Of a stretch of DNA of 64,000 bases, positions 11,430-27,207 are shown piece by piece. Position 1 is the stretch's first letter. Every line of letters begins with the position of its first letter. The notes below the pieces were generated by a model. The model did not search any database. It was not told the origin of the DNA and worked only from the letters and a program-made list of their open reading frames with translations. Origin of the DNA: Haloplanus salinarum (GTDB taxonomy: Archaea > Halobacteriota > Halobacteria > Halobacteriales > Haloferacaceae); NCBI RefSeq assembly GCF_024498175.1, contig NZ_CP101823.1, positions 2,982,987-3,046,986 on the forward strand. The letters run 5' to 3'. The translations under genes and the position numbers were made by a program.

Positions 11430-12800
11430 TCAGTCGAGCCGCGGTTCGACGTCGTCGAGGTCCTCGCGGGCGGCGTCGAGCAGGAGTTTCCGCTCGGCGC
11501 GGGCGACGACCCGGCGCACCTCGTCGACCGCGTCGATGTTCGAGGACAGCGAGCTGATTCCCTTCTCGACGAGGAACTTCGCCATGTCCGGGTGTGATCC
11601 GGATTGGCCCGTGATGGTGGTGTCGACGTCGTGTTCGTTACACGCCTCGATGACCTCCGCCATCGCCTCCAGGATCGTGGGGTGGAAGTCGTCGAAGCGG
11701 TCCGCGACCATCGCGTTGTTGCGGTCCACCGCGAGCATGAACTGGACGATGTCGTTGGTACCGAGCGCGACGAAGTCGATGCCCTCGTCGATGATCTCGT
11801 CGATAGCACGGATGCTGGCCGGCGTCTCGATCATCGCCCCCCAGTCGTGTGTCTCGCGATCGATGCCCACCTCGTCCATCAGCTCCCGCGCCCGCCGCAC
11901 GTCCTCGGCGTCGTTGGGCAGCGGGAACATGACCTCGACGTTGTCGTAGCCCATGTCGTGCAGGCGCTTGAACGCCCGCAGTTCGAGTTTGACCATCTCG
12001 GGTTCCTTGAGGCTCCGCCGGATGCCCCGGTAGCCGAGCATCGGGTTGTGCTCGTGGGGTTCGTTCTCGCCGCCCTCCAGTTCCGCGAGTTCGTCCGTCG
12101 GCGCGTCCAGCGTCCGGGCGCGGACCGGTCGCGGGTAGAAGGCGTCCGCGACCTTCCGGATCTCCTCGGATATCTCCTCGACGAAGGCGTCCTCGCCGTG
12201 GTCGGCCACGTACTTCTCGGGGGTCTTGCTCGTCGAGAGCAGGATGTGTTCGAGGCGGAGCAGGCCGACGCCGTCGGCGCCCGTGTCGGCCGCCCGCTGG
12301 GCGGCGTCGGGGATGGAGACGTTCACCTTCACCTCCGTCGCCGTCGTGGGGGCGCCCCCGGTCGACGGGTCGGCGCGCTCCCCGGCCGGGTCGGCCTCCG
12401 CGTCCGCGGCCGTCGACGACTCCGTCTCCGGCTCCGCGACGACGACCGTCCCCTTCTGGCCGTCGAGCGTGATCCGCTGGTCGTCGGACAGGACCGCCGT
12501 CGCCTCGCCACAGCCCACGATGGCCGGCACGCCGAGTTCGCGGGAGACGATGGCCGCGTGGGAGGTCATCCCGCCCTCGTCGGTGATGATGCCCGCCGAG
12601 CGCTTCATCGCGGGCACCATGTCGGGGGCGGTCATCTCGGTGACGATCACGTCGCCCTCGTCGATCCGGTCGGCCTCGTCGATATCCTCGACGATCCGCA
12701 CGGGTCCCGTCGCGACTCCCGGACTCGATCCGTAGCCGCTGACCAGTTCCTCGCCCGGTTCCTGCACCTCGTCGATCGCTTCGGTCTCGTTCGCCGTCAT
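11430..12800 (-). CDS. PEP-utilising enzyme lacking the ATP-grasp domain (PEP synthase-like)
   Basis: A 456-residue protein built from the central phosphohistidine domain (GGMTSHAAIVSRELG, about residue 75) and the C-terminal PEP-binding barrel (TLDAPTDEL, GYRGIRRSL, GAMIETPAS, LGTNDIVQFMLAVDRNN). An Ala/Asp-rich linker (about residues 125-150) joins them. The N-terminal ATP-grasp domain of PEP synthase (usual length about 750-790) is absent: the gene starts directly after the GAPDH stop codon. The usual SICGQ motif with the catalytic cysteine reads TITGQ. It may bind or transfer phosphate from PEP rather than make PEP, or it may need a separate ATP-grasp subunit. It probably shares an operon with gap. 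Confidence 0.8.
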   Translation of the reverse strand: MTANETEAIDEVQEPGEELVSGYGSSPGVATGPVRIVEDIDEADRIDEGDVIVTEMTAPDMVPAMKRSAGIITDEGGMTSHAAIVSRELGVPAIVGCGEATAVLSDDQRITLDGQKGTVVVAEPETESSTAADAEADPAGERADPSTGGAPTTATEVKVNVSIPDAAQRAADTGADGVGLLRLEHILLSTSKTPEKYVADHGEDAFVEEISEEIRKVADAFYPRPVRARTLDAPTDELAELEGGENEPHEHNPMLGYRGIRRSLKEPEMVKLELRAFKRLHDMGYDNVEVMFPLPNDAEDVRRARELMDEVGIDRETHDWGAMIETPASIRAIDEIIDEGIDFVALGTNDIVQFMLAVDRNNAMVADRFDDFHPTILEAMAEVIEACNEHDVDTTITGQSGSHPDMAKFLVEKGISSLSSNIDAVDEVRRVVARAERKLLLDAAREDLDDVEPRLD

Positions 12801-13793
12801 TTAGATGTCGCCGATCCCCATCACGTCGTTCGTCAGTTCGATGCTCTCCGCCGCGTCGGCCTCGCCCATCATCGCGCGGATGGCGTCCACGTTCTCCGGC
12901 ACCACGTCGCTCTCGCGGTGGATCGACTGGAACAGGTGGAGCTGTGGCCCCTCCATCGTGATGGAGTCCTCGAAGATCTGGTTCTCGTAGAGGTTCATCC
13001 GGTCGCGGCCGCGGTCGAGGGCGAACTCCTGCAGTTCCCACCCCGAGTCGATGCCGAGGTCGCCGTCGACGACGTGGATGCGGGACTGCGAGGCCAGCAG
13101 GTCGCGGACCTCCGCCGCGCTCGGCTCCCCGCCGAGTTCCACGTTGACGCCGTGGAAGTGGTGGCGTACCGTCGGCACCTTCATCCCCATCGTCGTGATC
13201 GGGCCCATATCGGGGATGACCTCGAGCGCGTCCGGGCCGTGGTGGGACGGCATCGTCACGGGGTCCGCCGAGATGACCGCGTGCTCGCCCCGACAGCGGA
13301 CCAGCGTGATGCTCGCGCGTTCGACGCCGTACTCCTCGTGGAGCGGCGCGAACATCCGGTTCAGCCCCGTCGTGTTACAGGAGACGATCCGGACGTAGTC
13401 CTTGTCGGTCGCCTCGGAGTAGTTGGCGCGGGCGGTGAAACTCGCCTCGGCCACGTCCGCCCCCTCGCCGCCTTGGAACAGCGCGGGCGTGTCGTACTCC
13501 TCGTAGATGGGGCGGTACTCGGCGCCCATCCCCGCCGGCGTCGCGTCGGCGACGATGTCGCTCGCCTCGATGAGGTCGTGGACGTCGCCCGCGACGTCCA
13601 TCCCCACCTCGGCCCACCGGTCGTGTCGACCCTCGGGTACGTAGATGTCGTACCCGCGGTCGGCGGCCGCGTCCGCCGTGTGGTTCGGACTCGCCTTGCC
13701 GATGCCGACCAACTCCATGTCGGGCATCGAATCCACTGCGTCGGCAACCCGCTTGCCGATGGTACCGTAGCCGTTGACGCCTACGCGAATCAT
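12801..13793 (-). CDS. gap: Type II glyceraldehyde-3-phosphate dehydrogenase
   Basis: A 330-residue archaeal GAPDH. The NAD(P)-binding glycine motif is VGVNGYGTIGKRVADA at the N-terminus, and the catalytic cysteine lies in SCNTTG (about residue 140). The start ATG at 13793 (MIRVGVNG) is preferred over an upstream in-frame start. In Haloferax volcanii the type II enzyme is reported to work in gluconeogenesis. Its immediate neighbour here is a PEP-synthase-like gene with no intervening bases, which fits that direction of carbon flow. It is cytoplasmic and presumably tetrameric. Confidence 0.93.
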   Translation of the reverse strand: MIRVGVNGYGTIGKRVADAVDSMPDMELVGIGKASPNHTADAAADRGYDIYVPEGRHDRWAEVGMDVAGDVHDLIEASDIVADATPAGMGAEYRPIYEEYDTPALFQGGEGADVAEASFTARANYSEATDKDYVRIVSCNTTGLNRMFAPLHEEYGVERASITLVRCRGEHAVISADPVTMPSHHGPDALEVIPDMGPITTMGMKVPTVRHHFHGVNVELGGEPSAAEVRDLLASQSRIHVVDGDLGIDSGWELQEFALDRGRDRMNLYENQIFEDSITMEGPQLHLFQSIHRESDVVPENVDAIRAMMGEADAAESIELTNDVMGIGDI

Positions 13794-13912
13794 ACGCTCC
13801 GTTGACCGCTCCCGCATATAGTGTCGACGTATTTCGCAGGTTTTGCATTAACTTTCGTGCTTAACTCGGGGGCCGTCTCATCCCCGATGTCGGCGCTCGA
13901 CGCCACCCCACC

Positions 13913-14250: not shown

Positions 14251-14502
14251 ATGGCCGCCGTCTCAGATACTCACGACGACCGATTCGGGCCCGCATCCGG
14301 GAAGCGGACGCCCGACGCACAGGTCGCCCTCGGGGCCGTAATGCTCGCGACGGTTCTCGCCGTCGCCGCCGCCGGATACGTCCTCGGCTCGGGCGCCGCG
14401 GCCCGGACGGCCGTGGTGATGCTTCCCCTCCTCGTCGCCGCGTCCCTCCGCACCTCCCTCGCCGACCACTCGGCGTACGTCTCCCTCTCCCGACGCCGCT
14501 AG
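14251..14502 (+). CDS. Small membrane protein, 83 residues
   Basis: A hydrophilic N-terminus of about 25 residues is followed by two Ala/Val/Leu-rich membrane segments (about 26-46 and 50-66) and a short basic tail ending SLSRRR. The family is not recognised. It is preceded by an unusually AT-rich region (14126-14250) with several TATA-like boxes. The end overlaps the convergent methyltransferase gene by 4 bases. Confidence 0.6.
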   Translation: MAAVSDTHDDRFGPASGKRTPDAQVALGAVMLATVLAVAAAGYVLGSGAAARTAVVMLPLLVAASLRTSLADHSAYVSLSRRR

Positions 14503-15314
14503 GGTCGATAGAGAACGTCGTACCCGTGGGCGACGTACGTCAGCGTTCCCGCTTCTAGCTGTCGACGACGGCTCGACAGCCACGACTCCACCGCCGGCAC
14601 CGCCACCGCGTCCGCGACGAACGACAGGATCCGTTCGAGGAAGTACCGCTCGTCGGCCGGGTAGTCGCCGTCCCGGGGGTGGACCACCCAGTCCGACGCC
14701 CCGGCCGCCAGCAGGTCCCCGCCGCGCGCCCGACAGCGGTCGAGCAGGTGCCGACCGGCCCGGACGTCCCGTCCCGGTTCGTCGTCGATGGCCCGGTGGT
14801 ACGCCTCGAGGACGGCGTCGTCGTCGGGGTGGTCGGGCTGGAAGAGCGTCTCGCCGTCGAACGTGATCGGCGCGTACACCAGCCCGTCGGGGCCGAGCGC
14901 CGCCGCGAAGGCGTCCAGCGCCGAGTCGATCGGCACCAGATCCATGAACGATCCCGCGACCACCAGGTCCGCCCGCTCGTCGTCGAACGCCTCCAGCGCG
15001 TCGCCCGTCTCGAACCGTACCGTCAGGTCGCCGACGCGGAACCCCGCGTCGGTGCGCTCGGCGTCCAGTTCCGTCGCCCGCAGGTCCCGCGCGCGCTCGA
15101 CGACCGCCGGATCCCGGTCGACGCCGCGGTACGACCCGGCGGTCACTCCCCAGTCCAGGAGCCGGGGGACGGTGACGCCGGTGCCGGCCCCCGCCTCCAG
15201 CACCCGGGGTGCCGACGGGAGCGCCGCCCGGAGACGGTCACGGACCCGCCGGTCGAGCGCCCGTTCGTCGACCGTCCGTTTCGCCTCCAGATACCGCTCC
15301 TCGGCGTGCTCCAT
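14499..15314 (-). CDS. Class I SAM-dependent methyltransferase
   Basis: A 271-residue protein with a Rossmann-like SAM-binding motif I VLEAGAGTG (about residue 38), an acidic motif II VDRDP, and a motif IV region DLVVAGSFMDLVP. The start ATG at 15314 overlaps the stop of the PTPS-like gene by one base (TGATG), so it is the last gene of a tight operon running from 19618. The substrate is unknown. In context it would methylate a small-molecule intermediate of the cluster pathway. Confidence 0.82.
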   Translation of the reverse strand: MEHAEERYLEAKRTVDERALDRRVRDRLRAALPSAPRVLEAGAGTGVTVPRLLDWGVTAGSYRGVDRDPAVVERARDLRATELDAERTDAGFRVGDLTVRFETGDALEAFDDERADLVVAGSFMDLVPIDSALDAFAAALGPDGLVYAPITFDGETLFQPDHPDDDAVLEAYHRAIDDEPGRDVRAGRHLLDRCRARGGDLLAAGASDWVVHPRDGDYPADERYFLERILSFVADAVAVPAVESWLSSRRRQLEAGTLTYVAHGYDVLYRP

Positions 15315-15691
15315 CACAGCGCCCGCTCGTGGCTGGCCCACGCGTCCTCGTCCTCCCACATCCGGATCGTCAGGCGCGTGGGCGTGTTCGTCGGCACCGC
15401 CTCGACGAACCGGTCGCCGAAGACCCGCGCGAAGCGCTCGACGCTCGGGTTCGCGTCCGCGAACTCCGGCAGGTCGTTCAACAGCGTATCGCGGTAGCGG
15501 GCTTCGAGTTCGTCGAGCGCGGCGTCGACGGCGTCGATGTCGACGAGGTAGCCGTACTCGTTCAGGTCGGGGCCGGCGAACCGAACCGCCACTTCGAAGT
15601 GGTGACTGTGAATCTCGCCCTCGGGGCCGGGGTCGGGGACCGTGAGGAAATGTTGGGACACGAAGTCCCGCGACACGGAGAGCCGATACAT
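15314..15691 (-). CDS. 6-pyruvoyl-tetrahydropterin synthase (PTPS/QueD) family protein, catalytic Cys replaced
   Basis: A 125-residue T-fold protein. Zinc ligands are visible as FVSQHF (first His) and the HSH of EIHSHHFEV (second and third), and NPSVERFA matches the NPTxE motif that anchors the substrate. The catalytic cysteine normally four residues before the HxH pair is Glu here (EGEIH). Cys-to-Glu exchange is reminiscent of the PTPS-III group, which makes 6-hydroxymethyl-dihydropterin, but the spacing may differ. It sits in a sugar/lipid-type operon rather than with queC/queE, so archaeosine synthesis is unlikely. Confidence 0.8.
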   Translation of the reverse strand: MYRLSVSRDFVSQHFLTVPDPGPEGEIHSHHFEVAVRFAGPDLNEYGYLVDIDAVDAALDELEARYRDTLLNDLPEFADANPSVERFARVFGDRFVEAVPTNTPTRLTIRMWEDEDAWASHERAL

Positions 15692-15728
15692 ATCCGGCGG
15701 TGGGCCGCGAGCGCCTTATACGCTCGGC

Positions 15729-16808
15729 CTATTCGAAGGTGAGCAACACCTGGAGCGCGTTCTCGGGGCCGCTGTCGAGCAGCCGGTACGCCTCCGCGGC
15801 GTTCTCGAACCCGATCCGGTGGGTGACGAGACGCTCCGTCGGGAGTTCGCGGAGACGGTCCCACGCCGTGTCCATCCGCCGTTCTTTCGTCCACCGGCCG
15901 CGGACTTCGGGCGCGAGCGTGCTCACCTGGCTCGACGACACGTCGATCCGGTTGCGGTGGAAAAAGCCCCCGAGGTCCGTCTCGGCGCGCTTGCGCCCGT
16001 ACCACGAGCCGACGACGATCCGTCCGTCGTAGCCCACGACGTCGACGGCGTCGTCGAGCGTCTCGGGCGACCCCGAGAGTTCGTACGCCAGGTCGGCGCC
16101 TGCGGGGTCGCCCCGTTCGCCGACCCGCGCCGCCACCGCGGGCCGGAGCGTCTCGTCGGCGCCCAGGCTGGCGGCCATCTCCCGCCGCTCCGCGACGGGT
16201 TCGACCACCGTCAGCCGTTCCAGCGGGAACGCCGAGAGGACGTGCGTCGTGACGAGGCCGACCATGCCGGAGCCGAAGACGACGACCCGTTCGCCCACCC
16301 GCGGGCGGCCGTCCATGACTAGCGTCGTCGCCGTCTCGGCCGTCGGCAGGAGCGCCGCCGTCTCCGTCGCGACGTCCTCCGGAACGGGCACGAGGTCGGC
16401 GGGCGACGCGGCGAAGTGACTCTCGTGGGGGTTGAACGCGAAGACGCGTCGGCCGTGCCACGACTCGTCGACGTCGTCCCCCAGCGCCACCACGTCGCCG
16501 ACGGTGGCGTAGCCGTACTTCAGCGGGTAGGAGAGGTCGCCGCCCAGCGCGTCGATGGTCGCGTCGGCGGCCAGATCCCGCGGCATCTCGCCCCGGTAGA
16601 TCAGGAGTTCGGTCCCCGAACTCACCGCCGAGACGCGGGCCGCGACGAGCACCTCGTCGGGGTCCGGGGTCGGCACCGACTCGTCCTCGACGCTGACCGT
16701 CCGGGGGTCGGTGAAGTACAGCGATCGGCCGGTCCCCGGGACGGGCCGCTCCGGGTCGTCCGCGTCCTCGACACGCTCTGTCACGCCCCCACTAGCCACG
16801 CTGCTCAC
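15729..16808 (-). CDS. MDR-family (zinc-dependent alcohol dehydrogenase-like) oxidoreductase
   Basis: A 359-residue medium-chain dehydrogenase with an N-terminal GroES-like fold and a nucleotide-binding domain whose motif is VVFGSGMVGLVTTHVL (about residue 175). The usual GHE zinc motif is replaced by KYGYATVG, and the structural-zinc cysteines are absent, so it is probably zinc-independent, like BchC-type relatives. GTG at 16808 is used; GTG at 16784 is an in-frame alternative. It lies 37 bases upstream of the PTPS-like gene and 36 downstream of the phosphatidyltransferase gene in the same operon. It would oxidise or reduce a polyol or hydroxyalkyl group. Confidence 0.82.
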   Translation of the reverse strand: MSSVASGGVTERVEDADDPERPVPGTGRSLYFTDPRTVSVEDESVPTPDPDEVLVAARVSAVSSGTELLIYRGEMPRDLAADATIDALGGDLSYPLKYGYATVGDVVALGDDVDESWHGRRVFAFNPHESHFAASPADLVPVPEDVATETAALLPTAETATTLVMDGRPRVGERVVVFGSGMVGLVTTHVLSAFPLERLTVVEPVAERREMAASLGADETLRPAVAARVGERGDPAGADLAYELSGSPETLDDAVDVVGYDGRIVVGSWYGRKRAETDLGGFFHRNRIDVSSSQVSTLAPEVRGRWTKERRMDTAWDRLRELPTERLVTHRIGFENAAEAYRLLDSGPENALQVLLTFE

Positions 16809-16844
16809 TTCATACTACCGCCCGTCCGGACGGCGCGCCCCCGA

Positions 16845-17630
16845 CTACCCGTCCAGCCGCCCGGTGACGGCGAGGTAGTCCCGAACGAACGTCGCGAGCG
16901 ACGGGACGACCACGACGAGCGCCGCCGGGTGGACGACCGCTGCGGGCAGCAGCGGCGTCAGCGCCACCGTGATGAACGCCATCTGGAGCGCCGCCAGCGG
17001 CCGCCGAACCCGACTCTCGGGCAGGTCGCCGACGGGTCGCCCCCGCCGGCGGCGCCACGCCGTCCCCGCGCGGTACACGTAACGAGCGGCCGACAGCGAC
17101 AGGTAGGCGGAGGGAAGTCGTCCCCAGGCGACGCCGACCAGCGGCGCGACAAGAAAGCCGAGCGTGTCGAAGGCGTGATCGAGTTTCGTCCCGAGCGGCG
17201 TCGTCCGCTCGGTCCGCCGCGCGAGGCGGCCGTCGGCGAAGTCGAGGGTGACCCCGGCGCCGTAACAGAGCGCGGGTGCCCAGCGAACCGCCGGGGGCGA
17301 CGCGCCGGTCCCGACCGGCCCGGCGACCGACGACGGCGGGACGACCAGAAACCCCGCCGCCGCGGCGTACAGCAACCCTCGGGTGATCGTCACGAGGTTC
17401 GGCGGCGCGGCGGCCGCGGCCGGTCGGTCGGCGTCGACGTGGTAGGCGAGGAACCCGACCACGTAACACAGCGTCGCTCCGGTCACCAACGCCCAGCGGT
17501 TCGCGGCGGCGCGCGTGGTTGCGTCGGCCACGAACGTCCAGCCGCCGACGGCGACGCCCGCGGCGGCGACTGCAGTCCCCGTCACCGCCGCGGCGCCCAG
17601 CCGTCGCTCCCGGACGGTCCCCCCGCTCAT
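16845..17630 (-). CDS. CDP-alcohol phosphatidyltransferase family protein
   Basis: A 261-residue membrane protein of about six to eight hydrophobic segments. The complete CDP-alcohol phosphotransferase motif D-x2-D-G-x2-A-R-x8-G-x3-D-x3-D is present (DFADGRLARR, then GTKLDHAFD, about residues 130-155), so it should be catalytically active. These enzymes transfer a phosphoalcohol from a CDP-alcohol to an acceptor hydroxyl at the membrane. The N-terminus has two extra hydrophobic helices before the catalytic core. It overlaps the fusion gene upstream by 4 bases. The position argues that it joins the product of the reductases to a lipid or other alcohol. Confidence 0.87.
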   Translation of the reverse strand: MSGGTVRERRLGAAAVTGTAVAAAGVAVGGWTFVADATTRAAANRWALVTGATLCYVVGFLAYHVDADRPAAAAAPPNLVTITRGLLYAAAAGFLVVPPSSVAGPVGTGASPPAVRWAPALCYGAGVTLDFADGRLARRTERTTPLGTKLDHAFDTLGFLVAPLVGVAWGRLPSAYLSLSAARYVYRAGTAWRRRRGRPVGDLPESRVRRPLAALQMAFITVALTPLLPAAVVHPAALVVVVPSLATFVRDYLAVTGRLDG

Positions 17631-19618
17631 CGCTCGAACTCGGAGTCAACGAGCGACGCGAACCGCTCGGTGCCGTCCGGCGGGAGGCGGTACCCCGCCG
17701 CGGCGAGGTTCTCGACCACGTGGTCGGGATCGACGCTGGACGGGATGGGGACGACGCCGTCGCCGACGTGCCAGGACAGGACGGCCGTCGCCGGCGAGAC
17801 GCCCATCTCGGCGGCCACCTCCGTCACCACCGGTTCCTCGAGGAGGCCCGGCACCGAGAGCGGCGAGTGGGCGACCACCCGGATGCCGCGCTCGTGACAC
17901 CACGCCACCAGGTCGTCGCGAGGCCGATACGGGTGCCGGGGGATCTGGACCACCGACGGGGGAATCCGCGCGAATTCGACGAGGTCGGCGAGGGTCGACA
18001 GGTCGACGTTACAGATCCCGAGCGTCGCCGTCAGTCCCCGGTCGTGGACCGCCTCCATCCGACGCCAGGTCGCTTCGAGGTTCACGTCCACCCGGTCCCG
18101 CTCGCCGTCCGACGTCTCGGGGAACGTGAGTGCCTCCTGTGTCTCGACCGGCAGTTCCGCGAGTCGTCGCAGCGGCCCGGTGTACGCCCACGACTCCGGC
18201 CAGTGGACCATGTAGCAATCGAGGGAATCGAGGCCGAGGTCGGCGAGCGTCGTCTCGCAGGCCTCCGCGACGTGGCCGTGGTTGGTGTTCCACACCTTGC
18301 TCGCGACGAAGAGGGCCTCGCGGTCGGGACTCCCCGGATCGGCGATGATCTCGCCGATCCGCGCCTCGTTGCCGTAGAGCTCCGCGGAGTCGAGGAGACG
18401 ATACCCCGCATCGAGCGCCCGTTCGATGGACTCCCGACGGTCGACGTAGGTGCCGTCGCGGTAGCGCGAACAGCCGAACCCGACGGGCGGCAGACGGAGC
18501 GCGGCGTCCGGCGGACCGGGTGAGGCCACGTCCCCGCCGTCGTCACCGCCGCCTTCGACGCCCCACACCACCGACCGTCGGGCGGGTCGCTCGACGACGC
18601 TCGCGTCGACCGCGACCGGCTCGCCGAGGTCGGCCGCCCGCTCGATGGCGTTACAGATGGCGACGACGTGGGCGCCCCGCCGGGCGGTCGAGCGGTCCGG
18701 GCGTTCCCGGCGAACGCTCGCCGCGAGCCGTTCCGGCCCGGCGAGATACGGCGTCCGCCGTGGCGGCGCCGTGAGCGGGTTCGGGGTGTACGCCCGGCCC
18801 GCCCGACCGACCGAGACGGGGGTGTGGTCGTCGGCTCCGAGGCCCCCCGCGTCGGCGAGGTACAGCGAGCCGTCGTCGCCGTGACACTCGAGGCTCGTGA
18901 ACTCCCGGCTCCGGTGGGGGGCGTAGAAGCTTGCGGTGAGGCGCACGAGCGGGCCGTCCGCGAACTCGACCGTCGCCTCGACGTGGCTCGGACGCTCCGG
19001 GGTGCGGGACTCGCGGTCGGGCCAGGGATCGGTGGCGTCGGCGACCCGCACCCGGCTCGCGGGGCCGAACCACGCCACGAGGAGGGTCAGCGGATACACC
19101 GCGCCGTCGTACAGCGGGCCCACCCGGAGGAACGAGTCGGGGTCGTCGTGCCACTCGGTCACGCGGCCGACGTGGGCGTGGGCGTACGCCAGGCGCACCG
19201 GGCCGAGGCGGCCGTCGTCGAGCGCCCGGCGGGCGAGTCGCTGCCCCTCGCAGTCCGGGTTGATCGGCGCACACCCGAGCGCGAGGTCGTGTCGGGTCGC
19301 GTACGCGACGAGGTCCCGCGCCCGCTCGGCCTCCAGCGCGAGGGGCTTCTCGCTCCAGACGTGTCGCCCCGCCCGAAGCGCCCGCTCGGTCACCGCCGCG
19401 TGGGCGCCGTGTCCGGTCAGGTTCACGACGAGCGGCGCGTCCGTGGCGTCGAGCAGGGCGTCGAGGTCGGTGTACGCCGCCGCCCCCGTGTCGGCCGCGA
19501 ACGACGCCGCCCGGTCGGCGTCGAGGTCACAGGCCGCGACCGGCGAGAGCGGCGACGAGTCGAGGGCGGCGGCGTACTTCCCCGCCACCGCCCCACACCC
19601 CACGAACGCACACTCCAT
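17627..19618 (-). CDS. Gfo/Idh/MocA dehydrogenase fused to an aldo/keto reductase
   Basis: A 663-residue two-domain protein. Residues 1 to about 345 are a Gfo/Idh/MocA-type dehydrogenase (N-terminal FVGCGAVAGKY nucleotide motif, WSEKPLA catalytic-lysine motif). A Gly/Asp-rich linker (about 353-362) leads to an aldo/keto reductase domain (about 372-663) with the tetrad visible in DSAELYGNE (Asp, Tyr), SKVWN (Lys) and VHWPE (His). Both families act on sugars or polyols with NAD(P)H, so the fusion may channel a sugar intermediate through two redox steps. It is the first gene of the operon and is divergent from the GT4 gene (71-base gap). Confidence 0.87.
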   Translation of the reverse strand: MECAFVGCGAVAGKYAAALDSSPLSPVAACDLDADRAASFAADTGAAAYTDLDALLDATDAPLVVNLTGHGAHAAVTERALRAGRHVWSEKPLALEAERARDLVAYATRHDLALGCAPINPDCEGQRLARRALDDGRLGPVRLAYAHAHVGRVTEWHDDPDSFLRVGPLYDGAVYPLTLLVAWFGPASRVRVADATDPWPDRESRTPERPSHVEATVEFADGPLVRLTASFYAPHRSREFTSLECHGDDGSLYLADAGGLGADDHTPVSVGRAGRAYTPNPLTAPPRRTPYLAGPERLAASVRRERPDRSTARRGAHVVAICNAIERAADLGEPVAVDASVVERPARRSVVWGVEGGGDDGGDVASPGPPDAALRLPPVGFGCSRYRDGTYVDRRESIERALDAGYRLLDSAELYGNEARIGEIIADPGSPDREALFVASKVWNTNHGHVAEACETTLADLGLDSLDCYMVHWPESWAYTGPLRRLAELPVETQEALTFPETSDGERDRVDVNLEATWRRMEAVHDRGLTATLGICNVDLSTLADLVEFARIPPSVVQIPRHPYRPRDDLVAWCHERGIRVVAHSPLSVPGLLEEPVVTEVAAEMGVSPATAVLSWHVGDGVVPIPSSVDPDHVVENLAAAGYRLPPDGTERFASLVDSEFER

Positions 19619-19689
19619 ACCCGTCGGCAGGCGGCGGCGGTGAAAAGCCTCCCGCCCGGCTTATGTCCCTCCCGCCCCCAGGGACGACG

Positions 19690-20796
19690 ATGGCCCGGAT
19701 CGCGGTCCTCCACAACACCCTCGACGGACGCGGCGGCGCCGACGCCGTCTGCCTCCACGTCTGCGAGGCGCTGCAGGACGCCCACGACGTGACGCTGTTT
19801 ACCCTCTCGCGGTCGTCGCTGTCGACCCTGAACCGCCTGTTCGACACCGGCGCGGCCGTGTCCGTCCACCGCCCGCCGGGCACCGCCCTGGTCTCCCGGG
19901 CGTTCGACGCCCTGCCCGAGCGGGTCGGCCCGGCGCTGGCCCCGCGCAGCGTCCTCCTCGCCCGCGCGTTCGCCCGCCACGCGCCCCGGTTCGACGCGGC
20001 CGTCAGCACCGCGAACGAGTTCGCGCTCCCCCTTCCGTCGGTCCAGTACGTCCACTTCCCACAGTTCAACAGGCGGTGCGCGCCGACCGGCGGGGCGGGC
20101 CGCCTCGATCCGCTCTGGAGTCGGCTGGCCGGCCTCGCCGACCGGCGACTCCCGGCCGACGCCTGCCTCCTCGCCAACTCGGCGTGGACGGCCGACGTCG
20201 TCGAGGACGTCTACGGCCGCCGGCCGACGGTCCGTCACCCGCCGGTCGACCCGCCGTCCGACCCGCGTCCCTGGGACGAGCGCGAGGACGGGGTCGTGGT
20301 CCTGGGGCGACTGGCGCCCGACAAGCGGCCGCTCCGGGCGATCCGGATCGTCGACGGCGTCCGCGACCGGGGCCACGACCTCCACCTCCACCTGGTCGGG
20401 TCGTCGTCGCCGATCTACGCCGACTACGCCGACCGCGTCGCCGCCGCGGCGGCCGCCCGCCCGTACGTCCACCTCGACCGGGACGCGTCCCGGGAGCGCC
20501 TCGATACGCTCCTCGAGACGCACCGCTACGGGCTCAACTGCAAACCCGAGGAACACTTCGGGATGGCGGTCGCGGAGTACGTCGCCGCCGGGATGGTGGC
20601 CTTCGCGCCCGACGCGGGCGGGCAACGCGAGGTGTTGGACGGCCGGTCCGACCGCCTGTTCGACTCGACGGCCGACGCCGTCGACACCGTCGTCGCCGCC
20701 GTCGCGGCCGACGACCGGCCGACGCTCCCCCGTGACCGGTACGCGAGCGATCGGTTCCACGCCGCCGTCCGGGCCCACGTCGCGTCGACCCTGTAG
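19690..20796 (+). CDS. Glycosyltransferase family 4 (GT-B, ALG11-like)
   Basis: A 368-residue GT-B enzyme. The N-terminal domain has the HNTLDGRGGADAV acceptor-side glycine loop and FPQFNRRC. The C-terminal domain has VVLGRLAPDKRP and the E-x7-E motif EHFGMAVAE in KPEEHFGMAVAEYVAAG (about residue 297), which binds the nucleotide sugar. ATG at 19690 is preferred over 19663. It is divergent from the reductase-fusion operon and probably belongs to the same pathway, adding a sugar to the product. No signal peptide is seen, so it acts in the cytoplasm or at the inner membrane face. Confidence 0.85.
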   Translation: MARIAVLHNTLDGRGGADAVCLHVCEALQDAHDVTLFTLSRSSLSTLNRLFDTGAAVSVHRPPGTALVSRAFDALPERVGPALAPRSVLLARAFARHAPRFDAAVSTANEFALPLPSVQYVHFPQFNRRCAPTGGAGRLDPLWSRLAGLADRRLPADACLLANSAWTADVVEDVYGRRPTVRHPPVDPPSDPRPWDEREDGVVVLGRLAPDKRPLRAIRIVDGVRDRGHDLHLHLVGSSSPIYADYADRVAAAAAARPYVHLDRDASRERLDTLLETHRYGLNCKPEEHFGMAVAEYVAAGMVAFAPDAGGQREVLDGRSDRLFDSTADAVDTVVAAVAADDRPTLPRDRYASDRFHAAVRAHVASTL

Positions 20797-21699: not shown

Positions 21700-21726
21700 C
21701 GTTTGGGTACATTCTATCCCGGCATA

Positions 21727-23505
21727 ATGCCGTCAAAGGTCGAGCGCTGGAAAGACGAAACTTACGGGATGGAGATCCGGGATCACCTCCTCCGATTCGC
21801 CGAGGAGGGCTGGGACGCCATTCCTGACGACGAACACGACGCCTGGTTCGAGCGGTTCAAGTGGTGGGGACTGTACCACCAGCGGAAGGGCCAGGAGAGC
21901 TACTTCATGATGCGGATCGGGACGCCGATGGGACGGATGAACCCCGAACAGCTCCGGACCGTCGGCGAGGTGGCCAAGGAGTACGCCACCGGCCCGGTCG
22001 AGAACCCCGAGTTCGGCGACGCCTACGCCGACTTCACGACTCGGCAGTCGATCCAGCTCCACTGGATCAAAGTCGAGGACATCCCCGACATCTGGGACGA
22101 ACTCGAATCCGTCGGGCTCTCGACGATCCAGGCCTGTGGCGACTCGTGGCGCAACATCGTCGGCTCCCCCGTCGCGGGACGTGACGCCGACGAACTGATC
22201 GACGTCTGGCCCATCGTCCAGGAACTCCACGAGACGTTCAAGGGCAACGACCTCTACTCGAACCTGCCCCGGAAGTGGAAGGTCGCCATGACCGGCGACC
22301 GCCGTGGCTCCGGCCAGGGCGACATCAACGACCTCGCCTTCGAACCCGCAGTCAAGGAGATCGATGGCGAGGCGATCGAGGGGTTCAACGTCAACGTCGG
22401 TGGCGGTCTCTCACGGAAGGAGCCTCGCTTCGCCCGCGACATCGACGTCTTCTGTCGCCCCGAGAACGCCGCCGACGTGGCCGCCGGGATGTCCGCGCTC
22501 TTCCGTGACTACGGCGACCGCGAGGACCGCTTCAACGCCCGTATCAAGTTCCTCGTCGACGAGTGGGGGCCCGAGAAGGTCCGCTCGGTCCTGCAGGAGG
22601 AGTACGTCGACTACGAACTCCCGACTGCGGGCCAGGGCCTCCGCGACGAGTACGACTACAACGCCGGTCACTCCGACTCCCACGGCGACTACGTCGGCGT
22701 CCACGACCAGAGCGACGGCCAGAACTTCGTCGGCCTCTACGTCACCGTCGGTCGGATGGGTGCCGACGACGTGATCGAACTCGCCGACCTCGCCGAGGAG
22801 TACGGCTCCGAGATGATCGGCCTCACCCAGCGCCAGAACGTCATCGTCGGCGACATCGCCGACGGGGACCTGGACGACTTCCTCGACGAGGACCTGCTCG
22901 ACGAGCACTCGCCGGACCCCCACCCGTTCATGCGCGGCTCCATCGCCTGTACGGGCACCGAGTACTGCTCGCTTTCCATCGTCGAGACGAAAAACCGGAT
23001 GGTCCGGTACGGGCGCTGGCTCCGGGACAACGTTTCCCTCCCCGAGGGCGTCGACGACTTCCACATCCACCTCTCGGGCTGTACCGCCTCGTGTGCCCAG
23101 CCACAGATCGCCGACATCAGCCTCCGCGGCATGAAGACGCGCAAGGACGGCGACGCCGTCGAGGCGTTCGACGTCGGCCTGGGTGGCGGCCTCGGCGAGA
23201 ATCCGACCTTCGCCGACTGGGTGAAGATGCGTGTCCCCGCCGACGAGGTGCCGGGCTACATCGCCAACCTCCTCGAAGCCTTCGAAGCGGAGCGCGAGAG
23301 CCCCGAACAGTCCTTCCGTGACTTCGTCGCCGAACGCGACGAGGACGAACTCGCCGCCCTCGCGGACGGCGAGGAGACGAGCTACGAGGACCCGTACCTC
23401 GGCAACACGAAGATGACGTGGTACCCCTACGCCGAGGACACCGACATGGACGCCTCGCCCGCACCGACCGACCCCAACGACCAGCCGCTCCCCTCGGACG
23501 ACTGA
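21727..23505 (+). CDS. nirA: Ferredoxin-dependent nitrite (or sulfite) reductase
   Basis: A 592-residue siroheme/[4Fe-4S] reductase with two ferredoxin-like halves. The cluster and siroheme ligands are present as CTGTEYC (about residue 414) and SGCTASC (about 455). It reduces nitrite to ammonium or sulfite to sulfide by six electrons from ferredoxin. The surrounding genes supply siroheme and a ferredoxin. Assimilatory nitrite reduction is the likelier role from the known haloarchaeal Nir proteins, but no nitrate reductase or nitrate transporter is in the window, so a sulfite role is not excluded. ATG at 21727 is preferred over an upstream in-frame start at 21703. Confidence 0.9.
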   Translation: MPSKVERWKDETYGMEIRDHLLRFAEEGWDAIPDDEHDAWFERFKWWGLYHQRKGQESYFMMRIGTPMGRMNPEQLRTVGEVAKEYATGPVENPEFGDAYADFTTRQSIQLHWIKVEDIPDIWDELESVGLSTIQACGDSWRNIVGSPVAGRDADELIDVWPIVQELHETFKGNDLYSNLPRKWKVAMTGDRRGSGQGDINDLAFEPAVKEIDGEAIEGFNVNVGGGLSRKEPRFARDIDVFCRPENAADVAAGMSALFRDYGDREDRFNARIKFLVDEWGPEKVRSVLQEEYVDYELPTAGQGLRDEYDYNAGHSDSHGDYVGVHDQSDGQNFVGLYVTVGRMGADDVIELADLAEEYGSEMIGLTQRQNVIVGDIADGDLDDFLDEDLLDEHSPDPHPFMRGSIACTGTEYCSLSIVETKNRMVRYGRWLRDNVSLPEGVDDFHIHLSGCTASCAQPQIADISLRGMKTRKDGDAVEAFDVGLGGGLGENPTFADWVKMRVPADEVPGYIANLLEAFEAERESPEQSFRDFVAERDEDELAALADGEETSYEDPYLGNTKMTWYPYAEDTDMDASPAPTDPNDQPLPSDD

Positions 23506-23506
23506 G

Positions 23507-23791
23507 ATGGCCGACCGCGTGCTGAAGGTCAACGCCTTCACGACGTTCGACCTCCTCGACGCCCGCGTCGAGGGCCACGGGTTCGAGGAGGAGGCCTTCG
23601 CCACGCTGAACGTCCGGACGGCCCGGAAGGAGCCCGAGGAGGTATCGCTCGACCTCGAACTCGACAACACCCAGCTCGACAGCGTGCCCGCCCACGCCGA
23701 CCGGGTCAGCCTCTCGGCCGAGGAGGCCCGGACCCTCGCGGCCGAACTGCAGCAGGCAGCGGAGCGCGTCGACGGGGCCGAGGACGCATGA
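23507..23791 (+). CDS. DUF6360 family protein, nir-linked
   Basis: A 94-residue soluble acidic protein that starts two bases after the nirA stop. It has a beta-rich N-terminal part (VLKVNAFTTFDLLDARVEG) and a C-terminal helix rich in Ala/Glu. It matches what I recall of DUF6360, a haloarchaeal family often next to nitrite reductase, with unknown role. The tight spacing argues for co-translation and perhaps an accessory role for the reductase. Confidence 0.7.
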   Translation: MADRVLKVNAFTTFDLLDARVEGHGFEEEAFATLNVRTARKEPEEVSLDLELDNTQLDSVPAHADRVSLSAEEARTLAAELQQAAERVDGAEDA

Positions 23792-23855
23792 TCCGTCGGT
23801 CCCGTCCGCCGACCCTCGCGACGGCGGCACGATCGAACCACCACACACCCCAACG

Positions 23856-24695
23856 ATGAGTACGACGACCACCGGCACGGTGTATCTCGTCGGGGGCGGC
23901 CCGGGCGACCCCGAACTCATGACGGTGAAGGCCCGCCGGCTCCTCGACGAGGCGGACGTCGTCCTCCACGACTCGCTCGTGGGCGACGGCGTGATCGAAT
24001 CGATCCCCGACCCAACGCGGGTCGAGAACGTCGGCAAGCGCGCCGACGGCGAGCGGACCCCCCAGGCCGAGATCAACGACCGTCTGATCCGCGAGGCCGA
24101 GGCGGGCCGGGACGTGGTCCGCCTGAAGGGCGGGGATCCGACCATCTTCGCCCGCGGCGGCGAGGAGGCCGAACACCTCGCGCGCCACGGCGTCCCCTTC
24201 GAGGTGGTCCCGGGGGTCACGAGCGCCATCGCCGCCCCGGGCGTCGCCGGCGTCCCGGCGACCCACCGGGAGCACGCCTCGGCGCTCGCGGTCGTGACGG
24301 GTCACGAGGACCCGACCAAGGCCGACAGCGCCCTCGACTGGGGCGCCCTGTCGGCGCTCGTCGACGCCGGCGGGACGCTGGTGATTCTCATGGGCGTCGG
24401 CCGCCTCCCCGACAACGTGGCGGCGCTCCGGGCCAACGGCGTCGCCCCCGACACGCCCGTCGCCATGGTCGAACGCGCCACCCTCGACGACGAACGGGTC
24501 GTCGCCGGCACGCTCGACACCGTCGTCGACCGGGCCGACGAGGCGGCCGTCGAACCCCCCGCGGTCACCGTCGTCGGCGAGGTGGTCGGGGTCCGCGAGA
24601 CGGTCGCTCACTGCCTCGGCGGCACCGACGCGGCCGTCGAGGGGCCCACCCTTGCCGTCCCCGAACGGGTCGTGGGGGTGACCGACAGTGACTGA
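23856..24695 (+). CDS. cobA: Uroporphyrinogen-III C-methyltransferase (SUMT)
   Basis: A 279-residue SAM-dependent tetrapyrrole methylase with the family motif VYLVGGGPGDPELMTVKA at the N-terminus, the VVRLKGGDP motif (about residue 88) and a PGVTSAIAAP segment. It makes precorrin-2, the first committed intermediate of siroheme, which the neighbouring NirA needs. The 3' end overlaps the TrpD2-like gene by 8 bases. Confidence 0.93.
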   Translation: MSTTTTGTVYLVGGGPGDPELMTVKARRLLDEADVVLHDSLVGDGVIESIPDPTRVENVGKRADGERTPQAEINDRLIREAEAGRDVVRLKGGDPTIFARGGEEAEHLARHGVPFEVVPGVTSAIAAPGVAGVPATHREHASALAVVTGHEDPTKADSALDWGALSALVDAGGTLVILMGVGRLPDNVAALRANGVAPDTPVAMVERATLDDERVVAGTLDTVVDRADEAAVEPPAVTVVGEVVGVRETVAHCLGGTDAAVEGPTLAVPERVVGVTDSD

Positions 24696-25743
24696 CGCCG
24701 GCGGCGACTGGCCGCTCAAGCGCCTCATGACCGAGGTGGTCGGCTCCGGCACCAAGTCCGCCGAGGACATGACCCACGCGCAGGCCGCCGAGGCCATGCG
24801 CCGGATCTTCGACGGCGACCCCGACCCGACGACGCTCGGTGCCTTCTGGCTCGCCAACCGCTGGAAGCACAACACCGCGACCGAACTCGCGGCGTTCACC
24901 GACGAGATGTGCGACCGTGTCGACTACGCGGCGCCGGACGCGGACCCCGTCGACTGCGGCGCCAACTACGACGGCAAGGGACGGTCGGCCGTCCTCGGCG
25001 TCGCCGCCGGCGTCGTCGCCGCCGCCGCCGGGACGCCCGTCGTCGCTCACTCCGGCGACCGCGTCCCCACGCAGAAACAGGACGCCTACAAGCACGTCCT
25101 CGACGAACTGGGCGTCGCGACCGAACTCGCGCCCGCGGACTCCGCGGCCATGGTCGACGACGTCGGCTTCGGCTTCTACTACCAGCCGTCGTTCAACCCC
25201 GCCGTCGTCGACCTGTTCGACCGCCGGGACCGAATGGGCGTCCGCACGTTCGTCAACACCGTCGAGACGCTCGCCAACCCCGCCGGCGCGAGCGTCCACC
25301 TCGGCTCCTTCTATCACCTCGCCTTCGCGAAGAAGGTGGTCGAGACGTTCCAGGGTAGCGAGTTCCACGACCTCGACCGCGTCGTCATGTTCCAGGGCAT
25401 GGAGGGGTACGACGACATCCGCCCGGGCTACACGAAGGTCGCGGACTGGCGGGCCGACGGCACGTTCGACGACTACGAGATCGAGACCGCGGAGTACGGC
25501 ATGGACTTCGAGACCGAGGACCTGGAGGTGGCGAACGTAGCCGCCGACAGCGCCCGCCTCACCCGGGAGGTGGTCGACGGCGAGCGTACCGACCACTGGT
25601 ACGACGCCGTCGCGCTCAACGCCGCGTTTCGGATCTACGCCGGCGACGACGCCGACTCGCTCGCGGACGGCCTCGACGCCGCCCGCGACGCCATCGACGA
25701 CGGCTCGGCCGCGGCCGTCCTCGACGACCTGCAGGCCGTCTGA
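24688..25743 (+). CDS. TrpD2/YbiB-like (anthranilate phosphoribosyltransferase-related) protein
   Basis: A 351-residue protein with the helical N-terminal domain of nucleoside phosphorylase/phosphoribosyltransferase families and an alpha/beta C-terminal domain. The canonical TrpD GTGGD phosphate loop reads NYDGKGRSA and the HGNR region reads AHSGDRVP, so normal anthranilate use is doubtful. TrpD2 (YbiB) proteins are described as nucleic-acid binding. The GTG start at 24688 overlaps cobA by 8 bases, placing it firmly in the nitrite/siroheme operon, where its job is unknown. Confidence 0.78.
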   Translation: MTDAGGDWPLKRLMTEVVGSGTKSAEDMTHAQAAEAMRRIFDGDPDPTTLGAFWLANRWKHNTATELAAFTDEMCDRVDYAAPDADPVDCGANYDGKGRSAVLGVAAGVVAAAAGTPVVAHSGDRVPTQKQDAYKHVLDELGVATELAPADSAAMVDDVGFGFYYQPSFNPAVVDLFDRRDRMGVRTFVNTVETLANPAGASVHLGSFYHLAFAKKVVETFQGSEFHDLDRVVMFQGMEGYDDIRPGYTKVADWRADGTFDDYEIETAEYGMDFETEDLEVANVAADSARLTREVVDGERTDHWYDAVALNAAFRIYAGDDADSLADGLDAARDAIDDGSAAAVLDDLQAV

Positions 25744-25777
25744 GGGGGTTTAACTCCCCGCCCCACCATCCACGACC

Positions 25778-26122
25778 ATGAGCGACGACACCGACGACGT
25801 CCGCCGTCCGAGCGACGTGGGCGACACCGACGCCCCCCCGGTCGAGGCCAAGCCCTACAAGATCATCTTCGAGGCGAACAAATGCATCGGCACCGGGAAA
25901 TGCGCCGAGGTGTCGGCCAACTGGGATCTCGACCTCGACACCGGGCTGGCGCGCCCGAAAACCTACTACGTCGACGAGGCCGACCTCGCGCACAACGTCC
26001 GGGCCGCGGAGGTCTGCCCGGCGAAGAAGGGACGCGGCGTCATCCACGTGATCGACCGCCGCACCGACGAGGAGGTCGCCCCCGACCCCGCGGGCGACGG
26101 TACGCTGAGCGTCGACTGGTAG
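25778..26122 (+). CDS. Ferredoxin with three cluster cysteines (probable [3Fe-4S])
   Basis: A 114-residue protein with a disordered acidic N-terminus (about 25 residues) and a ferredoxin core. The motif is CIGTGKC instead of CxxCxxC, so the second cysteine is Thr, and the last ligand lies in EVCPAKKG. Three cysteines suggest a [3Fe-4S] cluster. Following nirA, cobA and trpD2 on the same strand, it is the obvious candidate electron donor to the reductase, though that is inferred from position only. Confidence 0.85.
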   Translation: MSDDTDDVRRPSDVGDTDAPPVEAKPYKIIFEANKCIGTGKCAEVSANWDLDLDTGLARPKTYYVDEADLAHNVRAAEVCPAKKGRGVIHVIDRRTDEEVAPDPAGDGTLSVDW

Positions 26123-26123
26123 G

Positions 26124-26765
26124 TCACTCGTCGTCGAGCGTCGCCTCGACCACCCGCTCGGCCGCGGCCCGAACCTCGCTCTCCTCCCCCTCGCGTGCGG
26201 CCTCCCACACGGCCGCCGACTCGGCGACTGCTCGGACTGTCGCCCGGCGGGCGTCCGGTTCGGTCGACCGGAGCTCCGTCCGGAGGTCGGCGACGACCGT
26301 CGCCACCGTTCCCGCGCCCGCCACGGTCGACTCCAGTTCCCGGCGCAGGTGCCGACTCACCGCCGGACTGGTGCCGCCGGTCGTGACCGCGACGGTGACG
26401 GGGCCGTCCCCGACCGTCGCCGGGACGACGACGCTCCCCGGGTCGCGCTCCCCGCTCCGGTCGGCGCGGTTGACGAGGACGCCCGCCTCGCGGGCGTGGC
26501 GCTCGATCGCTGCGTTGAGTGCGCCGTCGTCCGTCGCCGCGACGACCAAGGCGGGGTCGGCGGCGTCGAGCCACGCGGGCACGTCGGCCGGCGTGGGCGC
26601 CGCGCGGACGAACTCGCTCGCGCCGAAGTCGGCGTCCGTGAAGGTGGGGCTGACGACGACGACCCGCGCCTCGCGTGCGAAGCGGCGCGCCTTCCGGGCG
26701 CCGACCGGGCCGCCGCCGAACACCAGCACTACCTCGCCGTGGAAGTCGTGGACGAGCGGGATCAC
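26124..26765 (-). CDS. Precorrin-2 dehydrogenase / siroheme synthase N-domain (SirC/CysG-N-like)
   Basis: A 213-residue protein with an NAD-binding motif VVLVFGGGPVGARKARRF near the N-terminus, followed by the SirC/Met8-type dimerisation part (NRADRSGERDPGSVVVPA, TTGGTSPAVSRHLRRELE). It oxidises precorrin-2 to sirohydrochlorin and in some relatives also inserts iron. The start is GTG at 26765. It is convergent with the ferredoxin gene (one base between stops), so it is on the opposite strand to the nitrite operon but completes the siroheme path. No other siroheme ferrochelatase is visible in the window. Confidence 0.88.
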   Translation of the reverse strand: MIPLVHDFHGEVVLVFGGGPVGARKARRFAREARVVVVSPTFTDADFGASEFVRAAPTPADVPAWLDAADPALVVAATDDGALNAAIERHAREAGVLVNRADRSGERDPGSVVVPATVGDGPVTVAVTTGGTSPAVSRHLRRELESTVAGAGTVATVVADLRTELRSTEPDARRATVRAVAESAAVWEAAREGEESEVRAAAERVVEATLDDE

Positions 26766-26844
26766 GGTGACACCTGGCGGTCGTCGGTGAAAAGTCGTCC
26801 CCCGCGGCCCGAACCGTTTTGGTCTCCCACCCCTATCCCGATCC

Positions 26845-27207
26845 ATGCTCGGACGGGTGCTGGGGTGGCTCGGACTGGGTGACGGCGACACCGCCGCCGA
26901 CGCCGACGCCGCCGATGCCGACCTCGACTGGGCCGATCCGGACATCGAGTACGGCGGGGACGGACCGCGTCGGCGGTACACCTGCGCCGAGTGCGACACC
27001 ACCATCGAGGGGTTCGGTCCCGACCGGCAGGTCACCTGCCCCGACTGCGGGACGGTGTTCAAGGGTGTCCTCGTCCCCGACCACGCCGTCTGCCCGGACT
27101 GCGAGTCGCGGATCGACGACGCCGAGTTCTACCCGGAGACGCGCCGCGACACCGAGTTCGCCGACTGCGGGGCCTGTGGATACCGCTGGGAGAGCGACCC
27201 ACGGTGA
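26845..27207 (+). CDS. Zinc-ribbon protein, 120 residues
   Basis: After an acidic N-terminus the protein has four CxxC knuckles: CAEC, CPDC, CPDC and CGAC, forming two zinc ribbons. The spacing recalls rubrerythrin-like or TFIIS-like ribbons, and such proteins commonly bind nucleic acid or partner proteins. Family not named. It is divergent from the SirC-like gene. Confidence 0.75.
   Translation: MLGRVLGWLGLGDGDTAADADAADADLDWADPDIEYGGDGPRRRYTCAECDTTIEGFGPDRQVTCPDCGTVFKGVLVPDHAVCPDCESRIDDAEFYPETRRDTEFADCGACGYRWESDPR

Follow-up and report, generated by a model that had tools for sequence, protein, structure and literature searches.

Six neighbouring genes of the haloarchaeon Haloplanus salinarum form the archaeal counterpart of a cross-domain, uncharacterised biosynthetic cluster, the core of which consists of a PTPS-like protein, a medium-chain dehydrogenase/reductase (MDR) without zinc ligands, a methyltransferase (MT) and a CDP-alcohol phosphotransferase (CDP-OH). 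We lean towards the view that this operon encodes the haloarchaeal version of a pathway leading from GTP, via a formylamino-pyrimidine nucleotide (FAPy) or diaminopyrimidine, to a glycosylated, methylated and probably lipid-linked pterin-like compound. The gene set, the orthology and synteny of its members, the loss of catalytic residues and the linkage to GTP cyclohydrolases are direct observations, and they are described below. The genes lie in the window G000:C1:2982987-3046986, that is, the whole 64,000-nucleotide stretch analysed here. The six genes are present at the coordinates given in the preliminary description of this DNA; all open reading frames are intact and carry the expected Pfam families (modules A and B are explained below):

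14499..15314, minus strand: class I S-adenosylmethionine (SAM)-dependent methyltransferase (MT; Pfam Methyltransf_23/25), ATG start at 15314, module A
15314..15691, minus strand: PTPS-like T-fold protein of the SCO6650/PTPS-IV kind (PF01242), core of module A
15729..16808, minus strand: BchC-like MDR without zinc-ligand Cys (ADH_zinc_N), core of module A
16845..17630, minus strand: membrane CDP-OH (PF01066, CDP-OH_P_transf), module B in haloarchaea
17627..19618, minus strand: GFO/IDH/MocA oxidoreductase fused to an aldo/keto reductase (GFO-AKR; Pfam GFO_IDH_MocA and Aldo_ket_red), module B, a haloarchaeal addition
19663..20796, plus strand: divergent GT4 glycosyltransferase (by Pfam), of a type other than the GT4 of the bacterial cluster, module B

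Transcription on the minus strand runs in the order GFO-AKR, CDP-OH, MDR, PTPS-like protein and MT, with the GT4 gene divergent from them (start at 19663 or at the downstream ATG 19690). The gaps are 37 bp between the PTPS and MDR genes and 36 bp between the MDR and CDP-OH genes; the CDP-OH and GFO-AKR genes overlap by a few bases (17627-17630), and the ATG of the MT gene lies on the PTPS stop codon at 15314. Among the 60 genomes searched (this one and its relatives), a PTPS gene of this type was found in 43. The six-gene order is kept in the ten PTPS-carrying relatives of the genus and in G051 and G017; the contig of G005 ends before GT4, and no PTPS gene was found in the congener G011. This conservation of gene order is far beyond chance, and the proposal that the six genes form one functional unit is supported.

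The bacterial counterparts were found with a Streptomyces PTPS-IV query, itself confirmed by a 91% database match: 20 bacterial plasmid records and, directly, haloarchaeal proteins were retrieved (best E 3e-7). A genome scan located the PTPS-like core at at least 591 bacterial loci. Neighbours were tallied for 88 loci, namely the best 80 of these genome loci and 8 plasmid loci; because the 80 were picked by similarity to one gammaproteobacterial sequence, the rates are not unbiased. MDR was present in all 88, GT4 in 84, MT in 82, CDP-OH in 74, RibD_C (the reductase domain of RibD) in 56, LPG_synthase_TM in 54 and RibA (GTP cyclohydrolase II) in 45; 38 loci had a creatininase-family protein. 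Conversely, hidden Markov models (HMMs) of the bacterial families recognised the haloarchaeal proteins, with E values of 1e-62 to 1e-80 for MDR (41 loci), 1e-10 to 1e-26 for MT (33 loci), 1e-15 to 1e-31 for CDP-OH and 1e-7 to 1e-17 for PTPS. Co-occurrence of the core beyond this genome was thus confirmed for haloarchaea and bacteria alike, and the earlier statement that these families are rarely seen together was rejected: the core recurs across hundreds of bacteria, being common to Actinomycetota, Proteobacteria, Acidobacteria and others. Some proteobacterial clusters additionally carry a cytochrome b561-like gene (L134, 12528-13085; L136, 13055-13582; L137, 13011-13544), which may hint at a redox-active product. 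The occurrence of PF00925 and PF01872 beside PTPS-IV has already been noted by AGeNNT (PMC5445326). A search of the open-licence literature brought up no description of the archaeal counterpart, of the exchange between ArfA and RibA described below or of the whole gene set, which agrees with the preliminary description in that no published function was found; the archaeal variant would be new, and the bacterial cluster is already recognised in part but unsolved.

The PTPS-like protein of the window has 3D7J (SCO6650) as its best PDB sequence match (E 1.9e-7), and the same entry is the top fold match (TM 0.90) of its AlphaFold2 model (pLDDT 96.8). It keeps the zinc-binding His14, His28 and His30 and the pterin-binding Glu113; Glu24 stands in place of the catalytic Cys, and Arg-Asp in place of the Asp-His dyad. 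These positions were surveyed, with the numbering of E. coli QueD, in 44 haloarchaeal, 88 bacterial and 20 QueD sequences. In the haloarchaeal proteins, His16, His31, His33 and Glu110 are kept, Cys27 is replaced by Glu in 44/44, and the Asp70 and His71 positions hold Arg (34/44) and Asp (42/44), respectively. The bacterial PTPS-IV proteins keep His16, His31 and Glu110 and have Ala at both Cys27 and His33 (the latter in 88/88), while the QueD set keeps all of the surveyed residues. The signature reads PGPEG in haloarchaea and FGPET in other archaea instead of the FGPAQ of PTPS-IV, GP being common, and the proteins of L253-L255 (other archaea; FGPET..HGH) are intermediate between the forms. The protein also departs from the PTPS-III motif ExxHGH, since its Glu lies at −4 rather than −3 of the first His (PEGExHSH), and it scores 38.2 bits against the QueD model TIGR03367, the cut-off of which is 89.25. 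In the tree, the haloarchaeal proteins group with bacterial PTPS-IV (support 99/89), but the alternative, in which they group with QueD, is not rejected (p-AU 0.30). Two further PTPS matches, in G256 and G260 (L257, L258), have the canonical Cys, Asp and His and are not members.

Judging from these residues, the QueD/PTPS reaction is impossible for the PTPS-like protein by the known mechanism. Because the catalytic Cys-Asp-His is missing, the "QueD" label is a misannotation, and the systematic naming of such proteins as 6-carboxytetrahydropterin synthase in public records is hereby corrected. A role in archaeosine synthesis was also rejected: PF06508 (QueC) gives only weak fragments in this genome (E 1e-4), in contrast to about 1e-70 in the congeners with a second PTPS, and no second PTPS was found in this genome; therefore, the PTPS is not for archaeosine. 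The protein should nevertheless hold a 2-amino-4-oxo pyrimidine or a pterin, so that the pterin-type substrate suggested earlier is supported by the retained Glu, whereas the loss of the catalytic residues had been overlooked. As a separate observation, the cluster PTPS and GT4 genes of L028 have a genuine QueC gene (G048:C1:2768595-2769218) as their neighbour; since that genome holds a single PF01242 protein, its QueD step is unexplained.

None of 125 MDRs has a conserved Cys, so that the ligands of zinc-dependent alcohol dehydrogenases are absent, and the bchC model gives the MDR 75.9 bits against a cut-off of 291.25. In the MT, the SAM-site and other residues are conserved across domains. 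In 25 sequences from the two domains, the CDP-alcohol motif, D-x2-D-G-x2-A-R-x8-G-x3-D-x3-D, shows no variation, which confirms the earlier description of it as intact. The AlphaFold2 model of CDP-OH (pLDDT 90.5) matches best the PGP synthase 7DRJ/7DRK; this match is weak, too weak for an acceptor to be named from it.

The genomic partners tie the cluster to GTP cyclohydrolases. The arfA gene (PF05165) lies within 10 kb of the PTPS gene in 17 of the 43 haloarchaeal genomes (G012, G014, G016, G018, G019, G021, G023, G026, G028, G032, G033, G041, G042, G044, G048, G054 and G056), six of which (G033, G041, G042, G044, G054 and G056) have a further arfA elsewhere. The chance figure is about 7e-27 (for one arfA per 3.3 Mb and with kinship ignored), and several families show the linkage; in Haloarcula pelagica, arfA belongs to the operon itself, where CDP-OH and MDR flank it. 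The ArfA tree contains 12 changes between the linked and unlinked states, 6 of them forced by supported branches. One dedicated clade for all in-cluster copies was only partly found: a single supported, divergent clade holds 4 of the 17 linked copies. In the non-haloarchaeal archaeon of L256, the genes for MT, RibA, MDR, PTPS and GT4 stand in a row with a creatininase gene nearby, and the bacterial-type RibA is directly upstream of MDR-PTPS, in the slot of ArfA. In haloarchaea, ArfA thus fills the place of RibA in bacteria; the two belong to GTP cyclohydrolase families that are not related to each other, yet their first product is the same.

GTP cyclohydrolase III makes FAPy, the deformylation of which by a creatininase-family enzyme has been demonstrated (PMC9478397). 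Among the RibA proteins of the clusters that were scored, a creatininase-family neighbour accompanies 29/29 without the switch Tyr, as opposed to 4/15 with it (Fisher p 1.8e-7). SCO6655 of S. coelicolor is reported (Spoonamore et al., 2006) to make FAPy, with Met replacing the Tyr of GTP cyclohydrolase II; to go by the locus numbers, it presumably lies near SCO6650. Two cluster RibD proteins were scanned and both were without the deaminase domain, with which a product keeping its 2-amino group, bound by the conserved Glu of the PTPS, would fit. The archaeal riboflavin route already yields a reduced 2-amino intermediate, so that the absence of RibD_C from the haloarchaeal clusters, where it was not found, fits as well. 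Because of these GTP cyclohydrolase, RibD and creatininase partners, which the preliminary description had missed, the cluster is tied to the first steps of riboflavin synthesis and not to the pterins of GTP cyclohydrolase I.

This bears on a conventional pterin pathway, in which the PTPS-like protein would take dihydroneopterin (or its phosphate) from GTP cyclohydrolase I or IB, the MDR and the aldo/keto reductase would act on the side chain in the manner of tetrahydrobiopterin synthesis, and a halopterin- or solfapterin-like pterin glycoside would be formed by GT4. The PTPS fold, the pterin-binding Glu conserved in all members, the presence of an aldo/keto reductase and GT4, and an MptA/FolE2 gene about 4-7 kb away in L254-L256 would agree with it. 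However, FolE (GTP cyclohydrolase I) was not found in any locus searched, and an origin from that enzyme was rejected; MptA was not found in any haloarchaeal or bacterial locus, the linked cyclohydrolases are of type II or III, and the catalytic Cys-Asp-His is lost. We therefore regard this pathway as unlikely.

Based on the gene arrangements in other haloarchaea, the six genes can be divided into two modules. MDR and PTPS are adjacent in most haloarchaeal loci, and in many other haloarchaea the next gene encodes another type of GT4 (cluster c6), with MT after it. The cluster c6 GT4s match the bacterial cluster GT4 HMM with E values of 1e-38 to 1e-64, in contrast to only about 1e-6 to 1e-11 for the window type. 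GFO-AKR occurs near CDP-OH in L013-L024, L033, L041, L054, L058 and L263. In the last of these, Halobellus limi, DUF7475, a window-type GT4, GFO-AKR and CDP-OH form one unit, with GT4 adjoining GFO-AKR; MDR-PTPS-MT lies on the same plasmid at a distance of about 160 kb. Salinigranum marinum has GFO-AKR together with CDP-OH but without PTPS. Since the modules are apart in these two organisms, the window brings two units together: module A (MDR, PTPS, MT) is joined to module B (CDP-OH, GFO-AKR, GT4) in this genus. The earlier reading of a single six-gene pathway thus stands as to the functional unit, but it overlooked that GFO-AKR, GT4 and CDP-OH are separable in haloarchaea. The small membrane protein DUF7475 (PF24287; cluster c3) accompanies CDP-OH in L014-L025, L033, L054, L263 and others, and may be its membrane partner; its gene was not found in the window, and three strong copies lie elsewhere in the genome. 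In some congeners (L016, L017, L019, L023), an LPG_synthase_TM protein follows MT as in the bacterial clusters, although these proteins are not close in sequence to the bacterial ones.

The same separation would suit an explanation in which an unusual polyol-phosphate lipid or glycolipid is the product of module B together with DUF7475, two separate pathways being joined in this genus. We consider this quite improbable, since CDP-OH accompanies MDR-PTPS in 74/88 bacterial loci and since Haloarcula, like other haloarchaea, has the two modules side by side. Least probable is that the cluster serves riboflavin or F420 (deazaflavin) metabolism as an accessory branch, regulating or boosting the supply of 5-amino-6-ribitylaminouracil: the ArfA, RibA, RibD_C and creatininase neighbours and the ascription of PTPS-IV to F420 by unpublished data (PMC5041015, where PTPS-V is left unclear) speak for it, but RibD_C lacks the deaminase, no lumazine synthase, riboflavin synthase or F420-biosynthesis genes are among the annotated neighbours, and GT4, MT and the CDP-alcohol transferase would be left unexplained.

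For the favoured route from GTP to a pterin-like compound, we infer all of the reactions, their order and the product from the enzyme families. GTP would first be opened by GTP cyclohydrolase II (RibA, bacteria) or III (ArfA, archaea) to FAPy and/or, once deformylated, 2,5-diamino-6-ribosylamino-pyrimidinone phosphate. Reduction of the sugar, through RibD_C in bacteria and presumably through the housekeeping ArfC in archaea, would then give a ribityl chain, the 2-amino group being retained. Next, the zinc-less MDR would oxidise or reduce the side chain, and the PTPS-like protein, gripping the 2-amino-4-oxo-pyrimidine or pterin by its Glu, would carry out ring or side-chain chemistry. Finally, GT4 would add a sugar and MT a methyl group, a decoration already proposed and kept in this model, and CDP-OH would attach the product through a phosphodiester, with CDP-archaeol or CDP-diacylglycerol as the probable partner, to give a membrane-linked compound; module B would make or modify a sugar or polyol. 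The lipid linkage, suggested by CDP-OH and the LPG_synthase_TM neighbours, is the weakest part of this model.

Several points weigh against this route. ArfA is not adjacent in this genus (it is encoded elsewhere in this genome), and 26 of the 43 haloarchaeal genomes have no arfA near PTPS; the FolE2 gene mentioned above lies near three non-haloarchaeal loci. On the tree, the RibA switch traces back to one change only, which means that the creatininase link is not independent evidence. A grouping of the haloarchaeal PTPS with QueD is not rejected (p-AU 0.30), and since the third zinc His is kept in haloarchaea and lost in bacteria, the two forms may catalyse different steps. A solitary PTPS without the cluster occurs on two Streptomyces plasmid loci (L133, L140; left out of the 88-locus tally), and CDP-OH is absent from some loci, which places lipid linkage outside the core.

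More broadly, and only tentatively, we suggest that Bacteria and haloarchaea share an undescribed class of GTP-derived, glycosylated, methylated and membrane-linked cofactor or lipid, the pathway of which would branch off at the FAPy/diaminopyrimidine stage of riboflavin synthesis and for which the non-homologous cyclohydrolases RibA and ArfA would have been recruited. An orphan gene set, the PTPS-like core of which occurs at 591 or more bacterial loci and in most of the haloarchaea examined, would make an uncharacterised metabolite. The attachment of two unrelated cyclohydrolases that lead through FAPy makes the archaeal version useful for narrowing down the first step; this version also places the problem in haloarchaea, of which some (Haloferax) are genetically well tractable. 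According to a table in PMC8305020, HVO_1284 is the ArfA of Haloferax volcanii, and its deletion causes riboflavin auxotrophy.

Two other regions of the window may be recorded. A PEP synthase-like protein (11430-12800, minus strand), encoded directly downstream of a GAPDH-like gene (12801-13817), has the mobile and PEP-binding domains only, without the N-terminal nucleotide-binding domain; the single PPDK_N domain of the genome is elsewhere, at C1:106688. At 21703-27062, a siroheme-dependent nitrite/sulfite reductase adjoins a tetrapyrrole methylase and a TrpD-like phosphoribosyltransferase, together with a short ferredoxin-like protein and a siroheme synthase-type protein.

Four known systems can be compared with the cluster. 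QueD (6-carboxytetrahydropterin synthase, PTPS-I) shares the T-fold, the zinc histidines and the pterin Glu with the window protein, which differs in lacking the catalytic Cys, the Asp-His dyad and a QueC in its genome; many relatives hold a separate, true QueD. The archaetidylinositol phosphate and PGP synthases have the same catalytic motif and core fold as CDP-OH, which differs by extra N-terminal helices and reaches only 21 bits against the archaetidylinositol phosphate synthase model (cut-off 180). The first steps of archaeal riboflavin synthesis (ArfA, ArfB, ArfC) have in common with the clusters the linked ArfA, the creatininase-family protein of some loci and, in bacteria, RibD_C; unlike that pathway, the clusters show no deaminase, lumazine synthase or riboflavin synthase, and carry glycosyl-, methyl- and CDP-alcohol transferases instead. 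The fourth is the SCO6650/PTPS-IV cluster of Streptomyces and proteobacteria, which includes the nearest solved structure and has the same neighbours MDR, MT and CDP-OH (in other haloarchaea also GT4) and a PTPS with the pterin Glu kept and the catalytic triad lost; the haloarchaeal clusters differ by ArfA as the partner cyclohydrolase and by the added GFO-AKR and another GT4, and their PTPS-like proteins by the third zinc His, by Glu rather than Ala at the Cys position and by PGPEG.

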